NCBI RefSeq assembly: GCF_000421825.1
Contig: NZ_ATXT01000011.1
Location: forward strand, 620,001 to 684,000
DNA from: Humibacter albus DSM 18994
GTDB lineage: Bacteria > Actinomycetota > Actinomycetes > Actinomycetales > Microbacteriaceae
DNA: 64,000 bases
Reading direction: 5' to 3'
Below the pieces are notes generated by a model. The model was given only the letters and a program-made list of their open reading frames with translations, was not told the DNA's origin and searched no databases. The translations under genes were made by a program, and so were the position numbers. Position 1 is the stretch's first letter. Every line of letters starts with the position of its first letter. Of this stretch, positions 52,737 through 63,068 are shown piece after piece.

Positions 52737-53495
52737 TCAGTCGGCCGATTCCTCCGTGCCAGCCTGTTTGTCGGGCTCGCCAGGGTTCTCGGATTCGCCA
52801 GGGTTCTCGGATTCGCCAGGGTTCTCGGATTCGCCAGGGTTCTTGGATCCGCCAGAATTCTCGGATGCCGTCGCCGTCCTGGATGCCGTCGCCGTCTCGG
52901 ACGACTCGGCCGCGGAATCCGCCGCGTCGTCGTCGCCCTCCGTCTCGGGGATCTCCTCGAACAGGCCGATCGGAGGCGTCACGGTGACGGTGCCGGCCGC
53001 GACGTCCACCTCCGGCACGATCGCGGACACGAACGGCACGAGCACCTCGCCGCTCGCCGTCTTCACCGCGAGCAGGTCCTGCGCCGGCAAGTGGTCGACG
53101 CGGGCGATGGTGCCCACCACCGCGCCCTCGCGCAGCACTCGCAGCCCGACGAGCTGATGGTCGTACCAGGCATCGTCCTCGACCGAGTCGTCCTGGTCGA
53201 CCCAGAGGATCGCCTTGATGAGCGTCTCCGCCTCCGTGCGGTCGTTGACGCCCTCGAAGAATCCCACCGGATGCCCGTTGTACCAACGCAGCTCGGCCAG
53301 CGTGAGCGTCTTGCCGTGCCACGGGGAACCGGTGGGCACCTGCAGTGAGAACTCGGCGCCGGGCACGAAGCGGTGCTCGGGATCGTCCGTGTAGAGCTCG
53401 AGCTTGATGGCCCCCTTGAGACCGTGGGCCTTGGTCAGTCTGCCGACGCGAAGCTGCTGCTTCGGCGGTTTCGGCTCGTCCTTCTTTCCGCTCAC
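52737..53495 (-). CDS. rimM: ribosome maturation factor RimM with repetitive acidic tail
   Basis: 252 aa. Residues about 14-180 are RimM: VGRLTKAHGLKGAIKLELYT, the PRC-barrel part with DDAWYDHQLVGLRVL, VDHLPAQDLLAVKT and VTPPIGLFEEI. RimM helps 16S processing and 30S assembly by binding S19. The last about 70 residues are an unusual acidic low-complexity tail with tandem NPGESE hexapeptides encoded by 18-bp repeats. Family members are usually about 170 aa. It lies 6 nt after khpA in the rpsP-khpA-rimM operon; trmD, its usual next gene, is 14.5 kb away. Confidence 0.93.
   Translation of the reverse strand: MSGKKDEPKPPKQQLRVGRLTKAHGLKGAIKLELYTDDPEHRFVPGAEFSLQVPTGSPWHGKTLTLAELRWYNGHPVGFFEGVNDRTEAETLIKAILWVDQDDSVEDDAWYDHQLVGLRVLREGAVVGTIARVDHLPAQDLLAVKTASGEVLVPFVSAIVPEVDVAAGTVTVTPPIGLFEEIPETEGDDDAADSAAESSETATASRTATASENSGGSKNPGESENPGESENPGESENPGEPDKQAGTEESAD
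52773..52898 (-). repeat. seven 18-bp tandem units in the rimM 3' end
   Basis: Plus-strand units of the form GGATTCGCCAGGGTTCTC run from 52773; the second and third are identical, the others differ slightly, and the last two (52863-52880, 52881-52898) are a diverged type GGATGCCGTCGCCGTCCT. All units are 18 bp, so the rimM frame is kept and the protein gains or loses six residues per unit. Confidence 0.9.
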
Positions 53496-54331: not shown

Positions 54332-56461
54332 TCAGGGCGCGAGACGGCGCGCGGCGACCAGGCCCTCGCTCGTCGCGCGCACGGCATCCACCCGACTCGC
54401 GTCGCGCGCTCCGCCGACCACCTCGAAGCGGATGCCCCGCTCGGCCAACTCGCGTCCGAGCGGGTCATGCGCTTCCTGCCCCGCGCACACCACGACGGCA
54501 TCCGCCGGCAGGAGCTCCACCTGGCCCCCCACGCGCGCGATCTCCACACCCTCCGGCGTGATGCGTCGGTACGTCAGCTCGTTGATCATGCGCACGCCCG
54601 CGTCCCGCAGCGCGCCGAGCACGACCCAGCGCGCCGTGATGCCGACTCCCTGGCCGAACTTGCCGGACCGGCGAAGGATCGTGACGTCCGATCCCGGGCG
54701 CGCGAGTCGGGACGCGGCCGCCGTCGCATCGCCCGGAGCCGTCGGGTCGCCCGGACGATTCGCCCAGTTGCCGCGCTTCGCCTCGAGCACGTCGGCGGGC
54801 CACGGAAGGCCGAAGCGCGGGGCGAACCCCGAGGCCCGCACCCGGGCATCCGCCGGCTCGACGAGCATGGTGGCGACATCGACGCCGATGCCTCCGCCGC
54901 CGACGATCACGACCTTGCCGGCCGGCACACCGTGCTGGATGGCGCGCTCGTAGTCGAGCACGTGCGGCAGCTCGGCTCCGGGGATGTCGACGACACGCGG
55001 TCGCACGCCCGTGGCGAGCACGACCCCGTCGAAGCCCGCCAGATCGTCGGCGGTCGCCGCCGCACCGAGCTCGAGCCTCGCACCGAGCCGGCTCAGCTCT
55101 TCGGATGCCGCGCGCGGCGTGGCCGCGTAGTCCTCCTTGCCCGGGATGCGCGCGGCGAGGGCGAACTGCCCGCCGAGGGCGTCGGCCGCCTCGAACAGTG
55201 TGACGTCGTGCCCGCGCCGCGCGAGGTCCAGGGCGGATGCCATTCCCGCCGGTCCACCTCCGACGACCGCGATGCGCGCACGCGATCGAGCCGCGACCAG
55301 TGGGAACTGCGACTCGCGTCCGGCGCGCGGGTTCACCAGGCACGAGACGGGCTCGAAGACGAGTGAGCGGTCGATGCACGCCTGATCGCAGCCGATGCAC
55401 GTGTTCACCAGGGAGAAGGCACCACCCCGCGATCGTTGGATGAGCTGCGGGTCGGCGAGGAACGGCCGTGCCAGTGCGATCGCGTCCACCGTACCGCGTT
55501 GCAACACCGTCTCCGCGTCGCGCAGGTCTGTGAAGCGGTTGCTCGCGATCACGGCGGCGTGTTCGCCGGCCTCGCGCAGCGCCGACACGATGCCCTCGGC
55601 CGCGGAGAGCCAGGCGCCGTGCGGAACGGCTGCCTGCACCGTCGGCACCCGGGATTCGTGCCACCCGATGCCCACGCTGATGGCGTCGGCACCGATGGTG
55701 GCCAGGCGCACCGCGAGCCGCGCGTAGTCGTGCGGCGCCGGAGCTTGGGGCATGAGGTCATCGCCCGAGATGCGCACCGTGACGGGGAGGTCGCCCACGG
55801 CGACGCGCACGGCACGCAGCGTCTCGATCGCGAAGCGCGAGCGGCGATCGCCGTCGCCGCCCCACTCGTCTTCGCGCAGGTTCGTCACCGGGGAACAGAA
55901 CTGGTTGATCAGGTAGCCCTCGGATGCCATCACTTCGACGGCGTCGAAGCCCAGACGCTTCGCCGTCGCGGCCGCGGTGGCGAACTGCTCGATGACCTCC
56001 CACGCCTCGTCGCTTCCGAGCGCACGCGGCACCTCGCCGTGCGCAGCACGCCACGGCAGCGCCGAGGGCGCCACGGACCGCGCCGGGGCACCCACGTCGT
56101 CCACGAGCCCGTCGAGTACGGCGTAACGACCTGCATGGAAGAGCTGCGCGGCCACCGCACCCCCGGCCTCGTGTGCAGCGCCCACGGCGTACGCGAGGCG
56201 CTCCTGCGCTTGAGGATCGCTCAGCACCGCATAGTCGGGCCCGCCTCGCCCCTCCGGCGACACCGCCAGGCCTCCGGTGACGATCAGCGCGGCCCCGCCC
56301 TCGATGCGCTCGCGGTAGAACGCGGCGAGGCCCTCTCCCCCGTCGTCGCGCATCTCCAGGCCGGTGTGCATGCTGCCCACCACCACGCGGTGCGGCAGTC
56401 GCAGCGTGCCCAGCGACCACGGGGTGAAGGTGCGGGTCAGCGCGGAGGGATCGGCGGGCAT
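54332..56461 (-). CDS. NADH:flavin oxidoreductase / 2,4-dienoyl-CoA reductase-like protein
   Basis: A 709-aa FadH-type protein. Residues about 10-350 are an old-yellow-enzyme TIM barrel (LPHRVVVGSMHTGLE; QLFHAGRYAVLDG; EVMASEGYLINQFCSP), followed by [4Fe-4S] ligands in CIGCDQACID and CLVNP near 345-370, then an FAD/NAD(P) Rossmann region (IAVVGGGPAGMASALDLARR; VVIVGGGGIGVDVATMLVE) to the end. It reduces conjugated double bonds in CoA esters in relatives. As last gene of the operon, 3 nt after the SDR, it suits reduction of a cyclohexadiene-type ring intermediate; that step is inferred. Full length. Confidence 0.88.
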   Translation of the reverse strand: MPADPSALTRTFTPWSLGTLRLPHRVVVGSMHTGLEMRDDGGEGLAAFYRERIEGGAALIVTGGLAVSPEGRGGPDYAVLSDPQAQERLAYAVGAAHEAGGAVAAQLFHAGRYAVLDGLVDDVGAPARSVAPSALPWRAAHGEVPRALGSDEAWEVIEQFATAAATAKRLGFDAVEVMASEGYLINQFCSPVTNLREDEWGGDGDRRSRFAIETLRAVRVAVGDLPVTVRISGDDLMPQAPAPHDYARLAVRLATIGADAISVGIGWHESRVPTVQAAVPHGAWLSAAEGIVSALREAGEHAAVIASNRFTDLRDAETVLQRGTVDAIALARPFLADPQLIQRSRGGAFSLVNTCIGCDQACIDRSLVFEPVSCLVNPRAGRESQFPLVAARSRARIAVVGGGPAGMASALDLARRGHDVTLFEAADALGGQFALAARIPGKEDYAATPRAASEELSRLGARLELGAAATADDLAGFDGVVLATGVRPRVVDIPGAELPHVLDYERAIQHGVPAGKVVIVGGGGIGVDVATMLVEPADARVRASGFAPRFGLPWPADVLEAKRGNWANRPGDPTAPGDATAAASRLARPGSDVTILRRSGKFGQGVGITARWVVLGALRDAGVRMINELTYRRITPEGVEIARVGGQVELLPADAVVVCAGQEAHDPLGRELAERGIRFEVVGGARDASRVDAVRATSEGLVAARRLAP

Positions 56462-56464
56462 CCG

Positions 56465-57316
56465 TCAGTCGCCGAAGACCGCGGCGCGCAACTCGCCGGA
56501 GGTGTCCGCCCAGTACGGCGGGGCCACGACGGTCAGCCCGCCGTCGACGGTGATGGTCTGACCGGTGATGTACCCGGCGTGGGCACCGAGCAGGAACTCG
56601 ACGGCGGATGCCATGTCGTCCGCCGTTCCCGGACGTCCGAGCGGCACCTTCTCGATCACGGACTGCATGGGCGCCATTCCCGGCACCCGCTCGTAGAAGT
56701 ACTCGAGCGAGTCGGTGTCGATCAGGCCGCCGTTCACCGCGTTCACGGTGATGTTGCGCGGACCGAATTCCGTCGCCATGAACTTGACGTACGACTCCAC
56801 CGCCGCCTTCGCCGCACCCAGCGAAGCGTAGGTCGGGAACGCGCGCAGCGATCCGTAGCTCGTGACGGCGACGATGCGCCCACCATTCGTCATCAGGGCG
56901 GATGCCCGCTGTGCGCCGAGCACGAACGAGCGCACGTTCATGGCCCAGCTGCGGTCCAGGTGGTGCAGCTTGAGCGCCGAGACCGGCTTGAAGGCGCTCG
57001 CCGCCGCGTTGGCGACGAAACCGTCGAGTCGGCCGTACTCGGCCCGCACCTTCTCGAAGAGCGCGTCGATGTCGTCGGGCTCCTCGATGTCGGCCTGCAC
57101 GGCCAGGCCGCCGCCACCCAGTTCGCGCGCCTCGCGCACCACGTCGTCGGCCAGCTCGGCGTTCTTCTTGTAGTTGACGACCACGTGCTCACCGCGCGAT
57201 GCCAGCTTCAACGCCAGCACGCGGCCGATGCCGCGTGAGCTGCCGGTGATGAGCGTGACGCGCGGCCTCGCGGCCGTCTCGGCGGAGGCGGCGGATGTCG
57301 TCTCGGGTTCCGTCAT
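56465..57316 (-). CDS. short-chain reductase, FabL-like (candidate cyclohexenylcarbonyl-CoA reductase)
   Basis: A 283-aa SDR. N-terminal cofactor loop TGSSRGIGRVLALKL and NYKKNAELADDV; NAAASAFKP; then SYGSLRAFPTYASLGAAK where the active Tyr and Lys are spaced Tyr-x6-Lys, not the usual Tyr-x3-Lys. The segment ITVNAVNGGLIDTDSLEYF and the GQTITVDGG end also match the FabL type of enoyl reductase. In this operon the best role is reduction of the enoyl-CoA 1-cyclohexenylcarbonyl-CoA, the job of ChcA in Streptomyces collinus; identity with ChcA is not demonstrated. ATG 57316, 81 nt after the dehydrogenase stop. Confidence 0.82.
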   Translation of the reverse strand: MTEPETTSAASAETAARPRVTLITGSSRGIGRVLALKLASRGEHVVVNYKKNAELADDVVREARELGGGGLAVQADIEEPDDIDALFEKVRAEYGRLDGFVANAAASAFKPVSALKLHHLDRSWAMNVRSFVLGAQRASALMTNGGRIVAVTSYGSLRAFPTYASLGAAKAAVESYVKFMATEFGPRNITVNAVNGGLIDTDSLEYFYERVPGMAPMQSVIEKVPLGRPGTADDMASAVEFLLGAHAGYITGQTITVDGGLTVVAPPYWADTSGELRAAVFGD

Positions 57317-57397
57317 GAGCGGATGTGCTCCTGTTCTCGTTCGTTCTTCGTTCGTGTTCGGCATGCGGTCCGGCATGCGGCTCCGGGCGGGGCTGTC

Positions 57398-58564
57398 TCA
57401 GACCTGGCCTGTCAGCACGGCGCGGCCGACGACCAGCTTCTGGATCTCGTTCGTGCCCTCCTCGAAGCGCTGCGCACGGGCATCCCGGTACACGCGTTCG
57501 ATGGGGTTGCGCTTCCAGTAGCCCTGGCCGCCGTGAATCTGCAGCGCCTTGTCGGTCACCCGGGTGAGCATGTCGACGGCGACCATCTTGCTCGCGCTGG
57601 AGAGCACGCCCGCCTCCGGGTCGTCGTTCTCATACGCGCGCGCCGCCTCGAGCACGAGGGCCCTGGCGGCCCGGATGTCGGCGTAGTTCTCCGCGAGCAG
57701 GAACTGCACGGCCTGGCGCTGGGCGAGCTTCTTGCCGAACGTCTCGCGACGCTGCGCGTACTGCACGGCGAGCTCCTGCGCCCGCTCGGCGAGGCCCACG
57801 CAACTCATCGCCACCGAGACACGACTGGGCAGCAAGAAACCGCCCAGCATGACTTCGAGGCCCTGACCCTCTTCGCCGACACGGTTCGCCACCGGCACGG
57901 GCGTGTCGTGAAAACGCAGGATGGCGTGGTCGGTGCCGTGCACGCCCATCGTCTGCGAGTCGTCGACCACCTCGGCGCCGTCGAGGCCGGTGTTCGGCAC
58001 CATCATGGCGACGATGCCGTCCTTGCCGGTCGAGCCCTCGAGGCGGGCGGCGAGCAGCCACCAGTCGCACTTCACGCCGAACGTGATGAGGTGCTTCTCG
58101 CCGTTCAGCAGGTACCTGTCGCCCTCGCGGCGCACGGTGGAGTGGATGTCCGCGCCGGTTCCGCCCGTCGCCTCCGTGAGCGTGAACGCGACCAGCTTCT
58201 CGCCCTTCACCGATGGCACGACGAACTTCTCGCGCTGCTCATCGGTCATGTACGGGTCCATCGCGCGCCACGTGCCGTTGATGACGTGCACGAGCATGCG
58301 GATGGACGCGTGCGAGCGGGAGACGATCTCCATCAGCTCCAGGTACTGCGCGAATGGGATGCCGCGCCCGCCGAGCCGCTGCGGCGCCGCCAGCGAGAGA
58401 TAGCCGCGGTCGCGGAGCTCGGCGAACAGTTCCGGCGGAACCTCGCCGGTCGCCTCGATGCGCTCGGCGTACTGCTCGCCGGGGCCCGTGACCCACTGCG
58501 TGATCTCGCGCTTCAGTGCGGCGTACTCGTCGGCGTCCTCACGGGTGCCGGCATCCTGGCTCAT
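57398..58564 (-). CDS. acyl-CoA dehydrogenase
   Basis: A 388-aa medium/short-chain type acyl-CoA dehydrogenase. Visible: AFTLTEATGGTGADIHSTV (FAD and substrate loop near 125-145), RRETFGKKLAQRQAVQF, HGGQGYWKRNPIERVYRDAR near 350 and EGTNEIQKLVVGRAVL at the end, where the catalytic Glu of this subgroup is normally found (EGTNEI). It introduces or, in ring systems, rearranges a double bond alpha-beta to a CoA thioester. Its ATG overlaps the stop of the fused ligase (ATGA), so both are made together; the substrate is probably the CoA ester the ligase produces. Confidence 0.9.
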   Translation of the reverse strand: MSQDAGTREDADEYAALKREITQWVTGPGEQYAERIEATGEVPPELFAELRDRGYLSLAAPQRLGGRGIPFAQYLELMEIVSRSHASIRMLVHVINGTWRAMDPYMTDEQREKFVVPSVKGEKLVAFTLTEATGGTGADIHSTVRREGDRYLLNGEKHLITFGVKCDWWLLAARLEGSTGKDGIVAMMVPNTGLDGAEVVDDSQTMGVHGTDHAILRFHDTPVPVANRVGEEGQGLEVMLGGFLLPSRVSVAMSCVGLAERAQELAVQYAQRRETFGKKLAQRQAVQFLLAENYADIRAARALVLEAARAYENDDPEAGVLSSASKMVAVDMLTRVTDKALQIHGGQGYWKRNPIERVYRDARAQRFEEGTNEIQKLVVGRAVLTGQV

Positions 58565-61500
58565 GCGTTCTCCTTCCGCTGCGCGTTCTCCGTGGCCACC
58601 AGCACGGCGGCCCGCTCGCGCAGCACGTTCTTCTGGATCTTGCCCACCGCGTTGCGCGGCAGCTCGTCGATCAGTTCGACCCGCTCCGGCCAGTAGTACT
58701 TCGAGGTGCCGTGGCGTCGCAGATAATCCTGCACCTCCGCCAGTGCCAGGGGCGAACCCTGCGCCGCCGGCACCACGAAAGCGCACGCGCGTTCGCCGAG
58801 CCGAGGGTCGGGCATCGCGACGATCGCGACGTCGGTGACCTTCGGGTGCTGGTAGAGCAGATTCTCGATCTCGACGACCGGGATCTTCTCGCCGCCACGA
58901 TTGATCACGTCCTTCACCCGTCCGGTGATGTGCAGGTAACCCGCCTCGTCGAGACGGGCGAGGTCGCCGGTGCGATACCAGCCGTCGTCGGTGAACACGT
59001 CTGCGGTGAGGTCGGGGCGCTGCAGGTAGCCGTCGAAGACGGTCGGCGAGCGCAGCTCGTAGTTGCCCTCCACGCCGGCGGCCACGCGCTCGCCGTTGTC
59101 GTCGACGATACGGATGTCCACGCCGAACAACGCGCGCCCGTCGCTGCCCCAGGCATCCTCGGGCTTGTCGTCCGTTCCCGCGAGCGTGCCGAGGCACGTC
59201 TCCGTGGTGCCGAACGCGCCGAGTACCCGCGTGCCCAGCACCTCGGTGGCACGCTGCGAGAGCGCGCGCGGCACGGCGGCGCCGGTGGCCACGAAGATGC
59301 GCAGGCTCTCCGGTTTCGCCTCACCTCCCTCGACCAGGGAGAGCAAGTCGGAGAGGAACGGGGTCGCCGCCTGCACGAACGTGGCCCTGCCCTCGCCGAA
59401 CGCCCGCTCGAGCGCCACGCGCCCGTCCCAGATCGGCTGGATGACCACGGCGACGCCGAGCCGCCAGGCGAGCAGCATGCCGTAGAGGAATCCGGTCTGG
59501 TGAGCGAGCGGCGACGGCACGTAGATGCGATCGTCGTGCGTGAGGCCGAGGTGGCGCACCTCCATGGCAGTGGCCAGCCCCAGGCTGCGATAGGTGTGAC
59601 GCACACCCTTCGGCTCCCCTGTGGTGCCGGAGGTGAACAGCAGCTGGCAGTAGTCGTCGAGCGTGGGGGCGGCCTGCGCGATGGCATCCGTGTCCACGTC
59701 CACGGCAGCGAGCGCGGCGTCGTAGTAGCGCCAGTTCCAGTCCGTGGTGCGGGCGTCCGCCACCGCGTCGGAGGGGATGGGCGGGATCTCCACCGACGAG
59801 TCCGCACCACGCCGATTCTCGCTGCGCAGAACGATCACGTGCTCGACCGCGAGCTCTCGGCCCTGCGACTCCGCTTCGCCGATGGCGGCGAGCAGTTCGA
59901 CGACGGGCTGCCGACCGCGGAAGTAGTTCGGCAGGAACAGCACCCGGGCGCGGGACCGCGCCAGCGTCATCGCCGTCTCGCGGGGACCGAACACCGGCAT
60001 GATCGGCGTCACGACACCGCCGACGCGCATGATGCCGAGCGCGATGGCGACGAATTCGCTCCAGTTCGGCAGCTGCACCGCCACCGCCTCTCCGCGCCGC
60101 ACGCCGGCCTCCAGCAGCAGCGCGGCGACTCGATCGGCCTCCTCGTCGAGCTCGCGCCAGGTGAGCGAACTCAGCGCGTGGCCGTCGGCCTCCAGCACCG
60201 CCGGCGCGTCGGGTTCCGCCGCCGCGGTCTGCGCGACGGCCTCGGTCAGCTGCAGCGGCTCGGCGGTCCCGGCGAGCGACGATGCGACATCTTCGGCCGA
60301 GGTCGCGACGGCCTCGTCCTCGTGGTCGTCGCGCTCGTCGTCGGCGGGCGGAGTGCCGATGTCCATGTGAAGTCCGATGCCGTTCATCTCGTCGAGGAAG
60401 GTGGGATAGGAGATGCGATAGGCGCGCGGATATGTCAGCGTCGACTCGCCGTCGGCCCGGGACGCCGCGACCGCCAGCGCCATCAGGACGCGATGGTCGT
60501 TGAACGACGACATGGCCGCCCCGCTCAACGAACGCACACCCGTGATGCGCAGCTCGTCAGGACTCTGCTCGAGTCGCCCGCCCATGCGGTTCAGCTGCAG
60601 CATGGCCGCCACGCGGTCGGACTCTTTGAGCCGGATGTGGCGCACGTTGTGCAGCCGCGACGTTCCGTCGGCGAACGCCGCCATGGAGGAGAGCACGGGT
60701 AGCAGGTCGGGGATCGGGCCGCAGTCGACGTCGATCGGACGCAGGTCGAGACCGTCGTGGGCGATGCGCACGAAGCCGGTGTCGGCATCCAGGGTCATCG
60801 GCACGCCCATCTCGGCGGCCAGGTCGAGGAACTCGGCCTCGGGATGATCCGTCTCGGCCGCGCGCGTCGCCGAGAGTCCCCGAAGCAGCACATCGCCCGG
60901 ATGCAGCGCCGCGGCCGCGATGCCGAAGGCGGCGGAGCCGATGTCGGGCGGGATGCGGTAGTCGCACGGCGTCGCCGTCTGCTGCGCCGGGATGCGGTAC
61001 GTGAGCCAGTCGTCGGAGACCTCGACGCGCAGGCCGAACATGCGCATCATGCGCACCGTCAGATCGACGTACGGCTGCTCGTTGAGACGCCCGCCCGTGA
61101 CATGAATCGTGGTGTCGTTCTCGGCGAACGGAGCGAGGAGGAGCAGACCGCTCAGCCACTGCGAGAGGGTACCGGCGATCGACACATCGCCACCGGTCGG
61201 CGCGTGCGGCTGCACCGTGATCGGCGGGCAGTCGTGCGTGCTCTGCAACCGCACGCCCATCTGGGTCAGCGAGTCGAGCAGCGCCTTGATCGGCCGGCGC
61301 TGGAAGTACTTCATGCCGGTCAGTGTCATCGGCTTGTCGGCCAGCGAGGCGAGTCCGACCATGAAATAGAGGGTGGTGCCGCTGGATCCGACGTTGAGCA
61401 CGCCGTCGGGCCCGCTCGAGCCGCGCTCGACGACGTCCGAAGCCCGGTAACGGCCACCGTGCACGACGTAGGCGTCACCGTCCACGTCGATGCGCGTGCC

Positions 61501-61680
61501 CAGGGCACGCAGCACGCCCACCGTCCACTCGACCTGCCGAGTGGACGACAGCCCCCGGATCACGCTCGTGCCCTCCGCCAGCGATGCCAGCACGAGGGCG
61601 CGGTGCGCGTGATACTTCGAGACCGGGATGTCGAGCTCGTTGACGAGCCGATCACGGGTTCCTTGGACCATCAGTCGCAT
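58561..61680 (-). CDS. fusion: EPSP-synthase-fold domain + acyl-CoA ligase (ANL)
   Basis: 1039 aa, one open frame. Residues 1-440 are an enolpyruvyl-transferase fold: IPVSKYHAHRALVLASLAEG at 19-38, NVGSSGTTLYF at 96-106, RRPIKALLDSL at 128-138, SQW at 173-175, PDLLPVLSSMAAF with Asp 325, RLKESDRV at 350-357, and FNDHR at 393-397. Residues 441-475 are an acidic linker. Residues 476-1039 are an ANL acyl-CoA ligase: LLFTSGTTGEPKG (P-loop, 680-692), GAFGTTETCLG, YRTGDLARLDEAG, INRGGEKI and the C-terminal Lys 1014 in RNAVGKIQ. Several EPSP-synthase PEP-site residues look changed. The two parts match separate proteins of the Streptomyces cyclohexanecarboxyl-CoA set. ATG 61680 follows GAAGAGG. Confidence 0.88.
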   Translation of the reverse strand: MRLMVQGTRDRLVNELDIPVSKYHAHRALVLASLAEGTSVIRGLSSTRQVEWTVGVLRALGTRIDVDGDAYVVHGGRYRASDVVERGSSGPDGVLNVGSSGTTLYFMVGLASLADKPMTLTGMKYFQRRPIKALLDSLTQMGVRLQSTHDCPPITVQPHAPTGGDVSIAGTLSQWLSGLLLLAPFAENDTTIHVTGGRLNEQPYVDLTVRMMRMFGLRVEVSDDWLTYRIPAQQTATPCDYRIPPDIGSAAFGIAAAALHPGDVLLRGLSATRAAETDHPEAEFLDLAAEMGVPMTLDADTGFVRIAHDGLDLRPIDVDCGPIPDLLPVLSSMAAFADGTSRLHNVRHIRLKESDRVAAMLQLNRMGGRLEQSPDELRITGVRSLSGAAMSSFNDHRVLMALAVAASRADGESTLTYPRAYRISYPTFLDEMNGIGLHMDIGTPPADDERDDHEDEAVATSAEDVASSLAGTAEPLQLTEAVAQTAAAEPDAPAVLEADGHALSSLTWRELDEEADRVAALLLEAGVRRGEAVAVQLPNWSEFVAIALGIMRVGGVVTPIMPVFGPRETAMTLARSRARVLFLPNYFRGRQPVVELLAAIGEAESQGRELAVEHVIVLRSENRRGADSSVEIPPIPSDAVADARTTDWNWRYYDAALAAVDVDTDAIAQAAPTLDDYCQLLFTSGTTGEPKGVRHTYRSLGLATAMEVRHLGLTHDDRIYVPSPLAHQTGFLYGMLLAWRLGVAVVIQPIWDGRVALERAFGEGRATFVQAATPFLSDLLSLVEGGEAKPESLRIFVATGAAVPRALSQRATEVLGTRVLGAFGTTETCLGTLAGTDDKPEDAWGSDGRALFGVDIRIVDDNGERVAAGVEGNYELRSPTVFDGYLQRPDLTADVFTDDGWYRTGDLARLDEAGYLHITGRVKDVINRGGEKIPVVEIENLLYQHPKVTDVAIVAMPDPRLGERACAFVVPAAQGSPLALAEVQDYLRRHGTSKYYWPERVELIDELPRNAVGKIQKNVLRERAAVLVATENAQRKENA

Positions 61681-61840: not shown

Positions 61841-61934
61841 GCCCCCGAGTCCCGAGTCGGGAAACCGTTCGCGTCGGCCAGGCGTGGAATGCCCCGGAGG
61901 TATGGGCTCGCCGACCACGCGAGAGGGGCGGCGC

Positions 61935-63068
61935 ATGCGGATCGAGTTCACCCGGTCGGAGCGTTCCACCGTGGGCATCGAGTGGGAGATCGCACTCGTC
62001 GACCGCGACACCGGCGACCTGGTGCAGAGCGCCGACGAGGTTCTGCACGCGCTGGAACCGGCTGACGGCGGCGAGCAGTCGCAGATCACCCACGAGCTGC
62101 TGCGCAACACCATCGAGTTGATCAGCAGCGTGCACCACAGCGTTCCCCATGCCGTCGCCGAGTTGCAGGGACTGATCGAGTCCGTGCGCGAGGTCACCGA
62201 CGACCTGGGCATCGAACTGATGTGCGCCGGAACGCATCCGTTCGCGCAGTGGTTCGACCAGAAGCCGACCCCGTCGGAACGCTACGAGCATCTGCTCGAG
62301 CGCACGCAGTGGTGGGGGCGCCAGATGCTGATCTGGGGCGTGCACGTGCACGTCGGCATCGAGCAGCGCGACAAGGTGCTGCCCATCGTGAACGGGCTGC
62401 TCACGTACCTTCCGCACCTGCAGGCGCTGAGCGCCTCGAGCCCGTTCTGGGGCGGTGTCGCCACGGGGTACGCGTCGAATCGCGCGCTGATGTTCCAGCA
62501 GCTTCCGACAGCCGGCCTGCCGTGGCAACTGGAGCACTGGAGCGACTACGAGCGCTACGTCGACGATCTCGTGAAGACGCAGGTAATCCGCGACTACACG
62601 GAGGTCCGCTGGGACATCCGCCCGTCAGCCCACTGGGGAACCGTGGAGATGCGCGCATGCGACGGCGTCTCCACCGTGACGGAACTCGGGGCGCTGGCCG
62701 CGATCATCCATTGCCTGACGGAACGGATGTCCGCCCAGCTCGACGGTGGAGAGCCGCCTCTCGTGCTCCCGCCGTGGTTCGTGCGCGAGAACAAGTGGCG
62801 TGCGGCCCGGTACGGCATCGACGCGGACATCATTCTCGACCCCGGCGGCGCACAGGGACCGGTGGCCGACGGACTGCGCTCACTCGTGACGGAACTCGCA
62901 CCGACGGCCGAGCGCCTCGGATGCTCCGCCGAGCTCGCCGATGTCGAGCGCATTCTGCGCACGGGCGTCAGCTACCAGCGGCAGCTCGCGGTGGCCGAGG
63001 CCAACGGTGGCAGTCTTCCCGCCGTGGTGTCGTCGCTGACGACGGAACTGCGAACCGGATTGAAGTAG
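61935..63068 (+). CDS. ybdK: YbdK-family carboxylate-amine (glutamate-cysteine) ligase
   Basis: A 377-aa glutamate-cysteine ligase 2 family protein (E. coli YbdK 372 aa). Visible: TVGIEWEIALVDRDTGDLV near residues 12-30 with metal-binding Glu, TIELISSVHHSVPHA, GTHPFAQW, and WGVHVHVGIE near 135 with conserved His, plus DYTEVRWDIRPSAHWGTVEMR. E. coli YbdK has weak ligase activity and no glutathione role is established; actinobacteria mostly use mycothiol. ATG 61935 follows GAGAGGGG; alternative starts at 61902 and 61884. Divergent from the cyclohexyl operon, convergent with ffh. Confidence 0.9.
   Translation: MRIEFTRSERSTVGIEWEIALVDRDTGDLVQSADEVLHALEPADGGEQSQITHELLRNTIELISSVHHSVPHAVAELQGLIESVREVTDDLGIELMCAGTHPFAQWFDQKPTPSERYEHLLERTQWWGRQMLIWGVHVHVGIEQRDKVLPIVNGLLTYLPHLQALSASSPFWGGVATGYASNRALMFQQLPTAGLPWQLEHWSDYERYVDDLVKTQVIRDYTEVRWDIRPSAHWGTVEMRACDGVSTVTELGALAAIIHCLTERMSAQLDGGEPPLVLPPWFVRENKWRAARYGIDADIILDPGGAQGPVADGLRSLVTELAPTAERLGCSAELADVERILRTGVSYQRQLAVAEANGGSLPAVVSSLTTELRTGLK

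Follow-up and report, generated by a model that had tools for sequence, protein, structure and literature searches.

In the 64,000-nucleotide stretch of the Humibacter albus DSM 18994 genome analysed here (contig NZ_ATXT01000011.1, positions 620,001 to 684,000; hereafter the window), four minus-strand genes at 54332-61680, designated JK, L, A and M in the order of their transcription, form one operon that very probably represents a vertically inherited cassette providing cyclohexanecarboxyl-CoA as starter to the type II fatty acid synthase (FAS II) for the synthesis of omega-cyclohexyl fatty acids. To our knowledge, such lipids are chemotaxonomically unusual, being known from thermoacidophilic bacilli and a small number of Microbacteriaceae. 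The pathway type is already known: the ansJ-ansM/chcA genes of Streptomyces collinus and the phoslactomycin genes plmJK-L-M/chcA specify a homologue of 5-enolpyruvylshikimate-3-phosphate (EPSP) synthase, a CoA ligase, an acyl-CoA dehydrogenase, a dienoyl-CoA-reductase-like protein and a short-chain dehydrogenase/reductase (SDR), plmJK being also a JK fusion. Compared with these gene lists, the window operon encodes the same five enzyme types together; unlike them, it stands alone by ffh and rpsP, is inherited within a clade and is apparently coupled to FAS II, no modular polyketide synthase (PKS) having been seen in the host genome. What might be new to specialists is the residue signature of the J domain, the breadth of the cassette across phyla and its FabF and FabH2 partners.

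An earlier note on this DNA had described the four genes from the letters alone, and their positions, their strand, the ATGA overlap joining JK to L and the gaps of 81 nt (L-A, using the A start at 57316) and 3 nt (A-M) were all reproduced. The enzyme families it had named were likewise confirmed, by Pfam for JK and L and by searches for structural relatives for A (FabL-like) and M (dienoyl-CoA-reductase-like), whereas its description of the operon as a compact version of the pathway is not apt, four genes with a fused JK being a common form in Actinomycetota. FabL is the closest solved structure to A (3oic, E 2e-52) and M matches the E. coli 2,4-dienoyl-CoA reductase over its full length (1ps9, E 3e-140). 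Simple pattern searches on hit-bounded translations, where some misses may be cut matches, found Y-x6-K, which we take to be an enoyl-reductase-like pattern, in all 98 A homologues, 96 of them with the preceding Ser-Gly (S-G...Y-x6-K). Among 92 M homologues the dienoyl-CoA reductase patterns S[EH]GY and GWHE were each present in 91 and the CX2CX3CX11C spacing in 85; the latter is missing in the matched stretch of M from loci of Alicyclobacillaceae, Bacillota and Conexibacter type (L170, L181, L173, L186, L188, L193 and L213). The EGT glutamate pattern occurs in 110/118 L homologues and the P-loop in 121/126 K homologues. The A and M motifs fit enoyl- and dienoyl-CoA reduction. Both proteins are close to Bacillus FabL and the E. 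coli 2,4-dienoyl-CoA reductase, respectively, over most of their length and match them in active-site patterns, but differ from them in being encoded together with J and K and in their presumed ring substrates.

The best NCBIfam model for K is TIGR03208, cyclohexanecarboxylate-CoA ligase, with 424 bits against a cut-off of 792, and L matches acryloyl-CoA reductase first and cyclohexane-1-carbonyl-CoA dehydrogenase third, all far under cut-off. These matches, and the 39-41% identity of K to plasmid genes annotated as aliA, could point to an operon for the breakdown of alicyclic or aromatic acids (aliA/bad-like), the EPSP-synthase-like domain then being a recruited binding domain. We consider this very unlikely: the K and L scores fall far short of the curated thresholds, a plasmid search with JK gave no match over 80% of its length in any of 36 records (the best 20 of the 36 cover K only), none of the four genes encodes a ring-cleavage enzyme, A and M resemble reductases, and J keeps the shikimate-binding Arg27 with pocket changes that are uniform throughout. 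Neither do the best homologues of all four proteins belong to unrelated catabolic pathways, the outcome against which the earlier note had set its proposal.

The solved relatives of the J domain are EPSP synthases (EPSPS), and its AlphaFold model (pLDDT 95.1) finds its best PDB match in the E. coli enzyme bound to shikimate-3-phosphate (TM 0.86; 3fk0, 1g6s). JK also passes the cut-off of the NCBIfam aroA model TIGR01356 (315 versus 287 bits) and, therefore, automatic annotation may label it aroA. We surveyed 130 non-redundant J sequences in E. coli EPSPS numbering, 74 of them from the named loci described below and retrieved via the motifs SKYHAHRA or [FY]NDHR[VI]LM, and the other 56 via a whole-protein search; this second set and the window show the same pocket changes as the motif-retrieved one. 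What J shares with E. coli EPSPS, besides the fold, are the equivalents of K22, R27, G96, R124, S170, Q171, D313, K340, E341, R344, H385 and R386, kept wherever covered. In contrast, S169 is missing and S197 is Glu in every sequence, S23 is Tyr in the 129 that cover the site, N94 is Ser in 130/130, K411 is replaced in 130/130 (Ile in 127, Gly in two, Val in one) and R100 is Tyr in 125 and Gln in five. If R27, S23, S169, S170 and S197 are taken as the shikimate-3-phosphate ligands, and K22, G96, R124, Q171, R344, R386 and K411 as those of phosphoenolpyruvate (PEP), J retains six of the seven PEP ligands, K411 being the exception, and only S170 of the 3-phosphate ligands S169, S170 and S197.

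The host genome (3.69 Mb, completeness 99.15) contains three EPSP_synthase matches: the fusion itself with 284 bits, a protein encoded separately on contig C17 with 342 bits and a third at C11:708653 with 193 bits. By eye, the C17 protein reads as AroA and the third as MurA, the fused domain being a spare beside a separate aroA. This AroA retains S23, S169, S170, Q171, S197 and K411 but departs from the E. coli enzyme at N94, D313, N336 and K340, so that these four positions are not diagnostic. J is thus unlikely to be an AroA, although the aroA model accepts it. That it should be an extra AroA next to an otherwise unrelated fatty-acid operon, as its TIGR01356 score and its many conserved EPSPS residues might suggest, is scarcely credible in view of the substituted pocket, the stand-alone aroA elsewhere, the fusion to K and the co-divergence with L, A and M; the candidate was rejected on the pocket residues and the separate host aroA. 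J would rather be a shikimate enzyme with no need for the 3-phosphate, and the Glu at position 197 would occupy the 3-phosphate site near the C3 oxygen, where it could serve as the acid for its departure.

Stand-alone copies of J were also observed. Streptomyces endocoffeicus (L154, 8956-10350) and S. rugosispiralis (L169, 8929-10323) carry J with neither K, L, A nor M, beside a gene that looks LysR-like by eye; in genome G877 (L120, L133), a related J is shortened and its match contains a stop. A second, stand-alone J of Lentzea sp. NBRC 105346 (L191, 8995-10272) lies amid large genes that by eye resemble those of nonribosomal peptide synthetases (NRPS), and a ketosynthase. Inspection of these three loci and of L198, where J also stands by itself, gave no clear pointer to the reaction of J.

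The fate of the activated starter can be approached from the ketosynthases of the host. A PF00109 search of the genome returned one full-length ketosynthase (C11:426813) and three short partial matches. The full-length protein reads as FabF and adjoins a FabH and a gene that is FabD-like by eye, while a second FabH (FabH2; C16:276474-277424) is unlinked to the cassette. The host hence has a FAS II with a beta-ketoacyl-acyl carrier protein (ACP) synthase III, and the same search disclosed no modular PKS to compete with it. Since the single full-length ketosynthase is FabF and no PKS was seen, a CoA-activated starter would most simply enter FAS II. Use of the starter in a polyketide or another secondary metabolite, on the model of ansatrienin and phoslactomycin, would follow the characterised examples known to us, which are polyketide clusters, and some Streptomyces loci do have ketosynthase and FabD/acyltransferase-like matches nearby; for a host genome that is 99% complete and has FabF as its one full-length ketosynthase, this destination is extremely unlikely. 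A type III PKS-like gene, so named by eye, sits on another host contig, C13 (L223, 6702-7880).

The pathway supplying FAS II would start with J acting on shikimate, not on its 3-phosphate, and removing or preparing the first hydroxyl, whereupon K would form the CoA thioester. M, of dienoyl-CoA reductase type, L, of acyl-CoA dehydrogenase type, and A, an enoyl reductase of FabL/ChcA type, would then perform alternating reductions and oxidations, the last step being the conversion of 1-cyclohexenylcarbonyl-CoA into cyclohexanecarboxyl-CoA by A. This starter would be condensed with malonyl-ACP by a beta-ketoacyl-ACP synthase III, perhaps FabH2 in this strain, and elongation by FAS II would yield omega-cyclohexyl fatty acids. 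A route ending elsewhere, in a shikimate-derived cyclohexenyl or hydroxylated alicyclic acid for another lipid or small molecule, is conceivable because L, A and M are members of broad families and some loci do without A or M (J-K-L-A in 4/4 loci of family f18 and 5/74 named loci; J-K-L-M in another 5/74). We regard it as improbable, all parts being present in the window and co-diverging, and the same set being found in Alicyclobacillaceae: pairwise distances of J, K, L, A and M across the window and 87 loci that have all five parts correlate with r = 0.85-0.92, a level reached in 0/500 permutations for each pair.

The descent of the cassette could be followed within the family, where the earlier note had proposed a survey of presence and absence. 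At E <= 1e-100, JK matched 43 of 398 sampled Microbacteriaceae genomes; one of them (G065) matched in the ligase part only, leaving 42/398 cassette-positive genomes from 14/85 genera. The order J-K-L-A-M is kept in 38 of the 41 other Microbacteriaceae loci, the exceptions being L080 and L082, which stop at contig ends, and L097, without A and M. Either or both of rpsP and ffh lie beside the cassette in 22/41 loci (L060-L080, L096); they were not found in the fetched stretch of 17, and the contigs of L081 and L082 are too short to tell. A quick maximum-likelihood tree of 130 J sequences and two AroA puts the window J in a 39-row clade (SH-aLRT 100) with 37 other rows of the family and Herbiconiux sp. 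L211, and within it in a 28-row subclade (SH-aLRT 99) made up of the window, the 22 rpsP/ffh loci, L081, L082 and L088-L090. A second group of the family, L084-L087, branches with Arthrobacter L212 in a different part of the tree, close to Streptomyces, Lentzea and Microlunatus, and therefore looks like a separate acquisition. Two congeners have no JK in their whole genomes: in G126, rpsP, the glutamate-cysteine-ligase-like gene and ffh are directly consecutive with no cassette between them, and in G179, which also has rpsP and ffh, both the cassette and the glutamate-cysteine-ligase-like gene are missing between them. These sequence comparisons indicate that the cassette is vertically inherited in a Microbacteriaceae clade and missing from the same locus in two congeners.

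FabH2 may offer a further link between cassette and fatty acid synthesis. A FabH2-like protein of at least 59% identity occurs in 19/398 genomes, 18 of the 42 cassette-positive versus one of the 356 cassette-negative ones (Fisher 1e-18, without correction for relatedness and with the cut chosen post hoc); counting the next match, at 54%, gives 18/42 versus 2/356. In the host genus it is present in 3/3 cassette-positive and 0/2 cassette-negative genomes. The association is suggestive only.

Beyond the family, J was found in 11/392 genomes of the genus of G420, taken as Streptomyces, with 52-64% identity; 8/12 loci of this genus have the J-K-L-A-M order, their J being 57-63% identical to that of the window. 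A scan of an 84,980-species collection gave 280 pattern matches and 265 relatives, the best 80 of which became our named loci, ranked, with the bias this entails, by likeness to a J of family f18 and leaving out 185 relatives. Holders include Alicyclobacillus, Alicyclobacillaceae, Eremiobacterota, Solirubrobacterales, Conexibacter, Lentzea, Streptosporangium, Kutzneria, Micromonospora, Microlunatus, a Rubrobacteraceae metagenome-assembled genome (MAG; family f18) and MAGs labelled Gammaproteobacteria, bearing in mind that MAG labels may be wrong. The 74 non-redundant named loci comprise 38 J-K-L-A-M, an order also seen in Solirubrobacterales and Eremiobacterota, 13 J-K-L, six J-K, five J-K-L-A, five J-K-L-M, four with J only and three J-K-L with divergent A and M (L170 and L181 from Alicyclobacillaceae, L213 from a Bacillota MAG), several of the short ones being cut by contig ends.

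A FabD, FabH or ketosynthase match lies somewhere in the fetched stretch of 46/138 loci, a set counting six duplicates and the cassette-free L105; the Cys-His-His triad was intact in all 35 ketosynthases checked, one from each of 35 loci. In loci of Microbacterium, Streptomyces, Streptosporangium, Solirubrobacterales and Eremiobacterota, the cassette has FabF-type genes as neighbours. Pairwise identities among 20 sequences, rather than a tree, define two subfamilies, one (58-89% identical) from Microbacterium, Streptomyces, Acidothermus, Solirubrobacterales-type and Streptosporangium loci, and the other (56-76%) from Eremiobacterota, MAGs labelled Gammaproteobacteria and one unclassified MAG. 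The Microbacterium and Streptomyces proteins pass the fabF equivalog cut-off and the Eremiobacterota one fails it, but the host's own FabF just misses it, so the cut-off is not decisive. Within Microbacteriaceae only L085 and L086, both of the second group, have such a match, and no ketosynthase stands beside the cassette in the fetched stretches of the window's clade. In Streptosporangium saharense (L161, 7796-17199) ACP-like and FabI-like genes, identified by eye, are followed by the cassette and then by a FabF-type gene. Two FabH-type matches precede J-K-L-A in Streptomyces sp. NRRL B-1140 (L171), S. katrae (L184) and Kitasatospora mediocidica (L190), the first two carrying in addition two ketosynthase matches, an arrangement that we find reminiscent of manumycin-type (asukamycin) clusters.

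Groups known for omega-cyclohexyl lipids are among the holders. Bacillus acidocaldarius, mentioned below, is now placed in Alicyclobacillus. Two Alicyclobacillaceae loci (L170, L181) group homologues of J, K, L, A and M together, with J and K separate, A and M divergent and J 48 and 49% identical to that of the window, and Herbiconiux sp. L211 has J-K-L-A-M; these are MAGs or isolates known here by their genes, and the lipid statements apply at group level. A cyclohexyl fatty acid is mentioned for B. acidocaldarius and Curtobacterium pusillum in PMC3426160, PMC5118839 cites a title of 1986 concerning omega-cyclohexyl fatty acids in Curtobacterium, and a text on Herbiconiux states that 'Cyclohexyl-C17:0 may be present' (PMC10011130). 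Sulfobacillus genomes are said, in a passage that gives no gene names, to have genes for omega-alicyclic fatty acids (PMC4378227), and for ansatrienin labelled shikimate is described as going into the cyclohexane carboxylic acid moiety (PMC8788734). No paper describing the cassette in Microbacteriaceae was recognised in a literature search that left subscription papers mostly outside, and we make no claim of novelty. Altogether, the earlier note's proposal of a starter-unit operon is supported by the full enzyme set, the separate aroA, FabH and FabF without a modular PKS seen, the same cassette in Alicyclobacillaceae and Herbiconiux, and motifs fitting enoyl- and dienoyl-CoA reduction.

Several points weigh against this reading. 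The lipid is predicted for this strain from its genes. A ChcB-type enoyl-CoA isomerase is needed in S. collinus, where its gene is unlinked. M is missing from the fetched stretch in all four f18 loci and L097 lacks both A and M. The co-divergence owes part of its strength to plain relatedness. As for FabH2, 24/42 cassette-positive genomes have no such protein, G257 has one without JK, the 59% cut was set after seeing the data, the Fisher test ignores relatedness and some genomes are incomplete. Finally, the cassette does not serve fatty acid synthesis in every case, as some copies in Streptomyces and Lentzea have PKS- or NRPS-like genes nearby.

The operon is flanked by ffh and the glutamate-cysteine-ligase-like gene on one side and by rpsP and rimM on the other, named by eye (Table 1). 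A promoter/terminator scan returned no promoter-like site, and its single terminator-like site, on the plus strand, does not exceed what shuffled sequence gives; an Rfam scan of the window at the gathering threshold had zero matches. At its 3' end, rimM carries an 18-bp tandem repeat in five copies (52777-52866), which gives the RimM protein a tail of repeated ESENPG.

Table 1. Features of the cassette and its flank, in window coordinates
Feature	Coordinates	Strand	Basis or remark
JK fusion	ATG at 61680, stop ends 58561	-	EPSP_synthase (281 bits) followed by AMP-binding (237 bits), both Pfam
J domain (EPSP-synthase fold) of JK	60349..61680	-	Pfam EPSP_synthase, TIGR01356; AlphaFold model
GTLSQW loop of J, equivalent of EPSPS Ser169 absent	61156..61173	-	gap in 130/130 J; Ser170 and Gln171 kept
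J Glu codon at the E. coli EPSPS Ser197 position	61078..61080	-	Glu in 130/130 J
K domain (acyl-CoA ligase) of JK, including stop codon	58561..60288	-	AMP-binding, AMP-binding_C
L, acyl-CoA dehydrogenase-type flavoenzyme	57398..58564	-	Pfam acyl-CoA dehydrogenase domains
A, FabL-like SDR (presumably ChcA-like)	56465..57316, alternative upstream start 57376	-	closest structure FabL 3oic
M, 2,4-dienoyl-CoA-reductase-like old yellow enzyme/Fe-S/FAD flavoenzyme	54332..56461	-	match to 1ps9
Glutamate-cysteine-ligase-like flank gene	61884..63068	+	beside the operon; context, outside the pathway

It is tempting to speculate further on J and on the other holders. We give about even chances to the combined proposal that J is a remodelled EPSP synthase working on unphosphorylated shikimate, a putative 1,4-dehydratase with or without transient PEP, and that omega-alicyclic lipids are made in Eremiobacterota, Solirubrobacterales and many actinobacteria; this prediction draws on the cassette, a partner FabF or FabH and the J signature together. 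We know of no report of such lipids in these groups. The J signature tells J from AroA, whose NCBIfam model accepts J, and draws attention to an uncharacterised step of this pathway, from which starter units of antibiotics are made as well. For the Microbacteriaceae, the cassette would provide the gene basis for their omega-cyclohexyl lipids, as well as a genome marker to predict them in other, partly uncultured groups, and its presence or absence at one locus within one genus may serve as a natural experiment on the function of such lipids.

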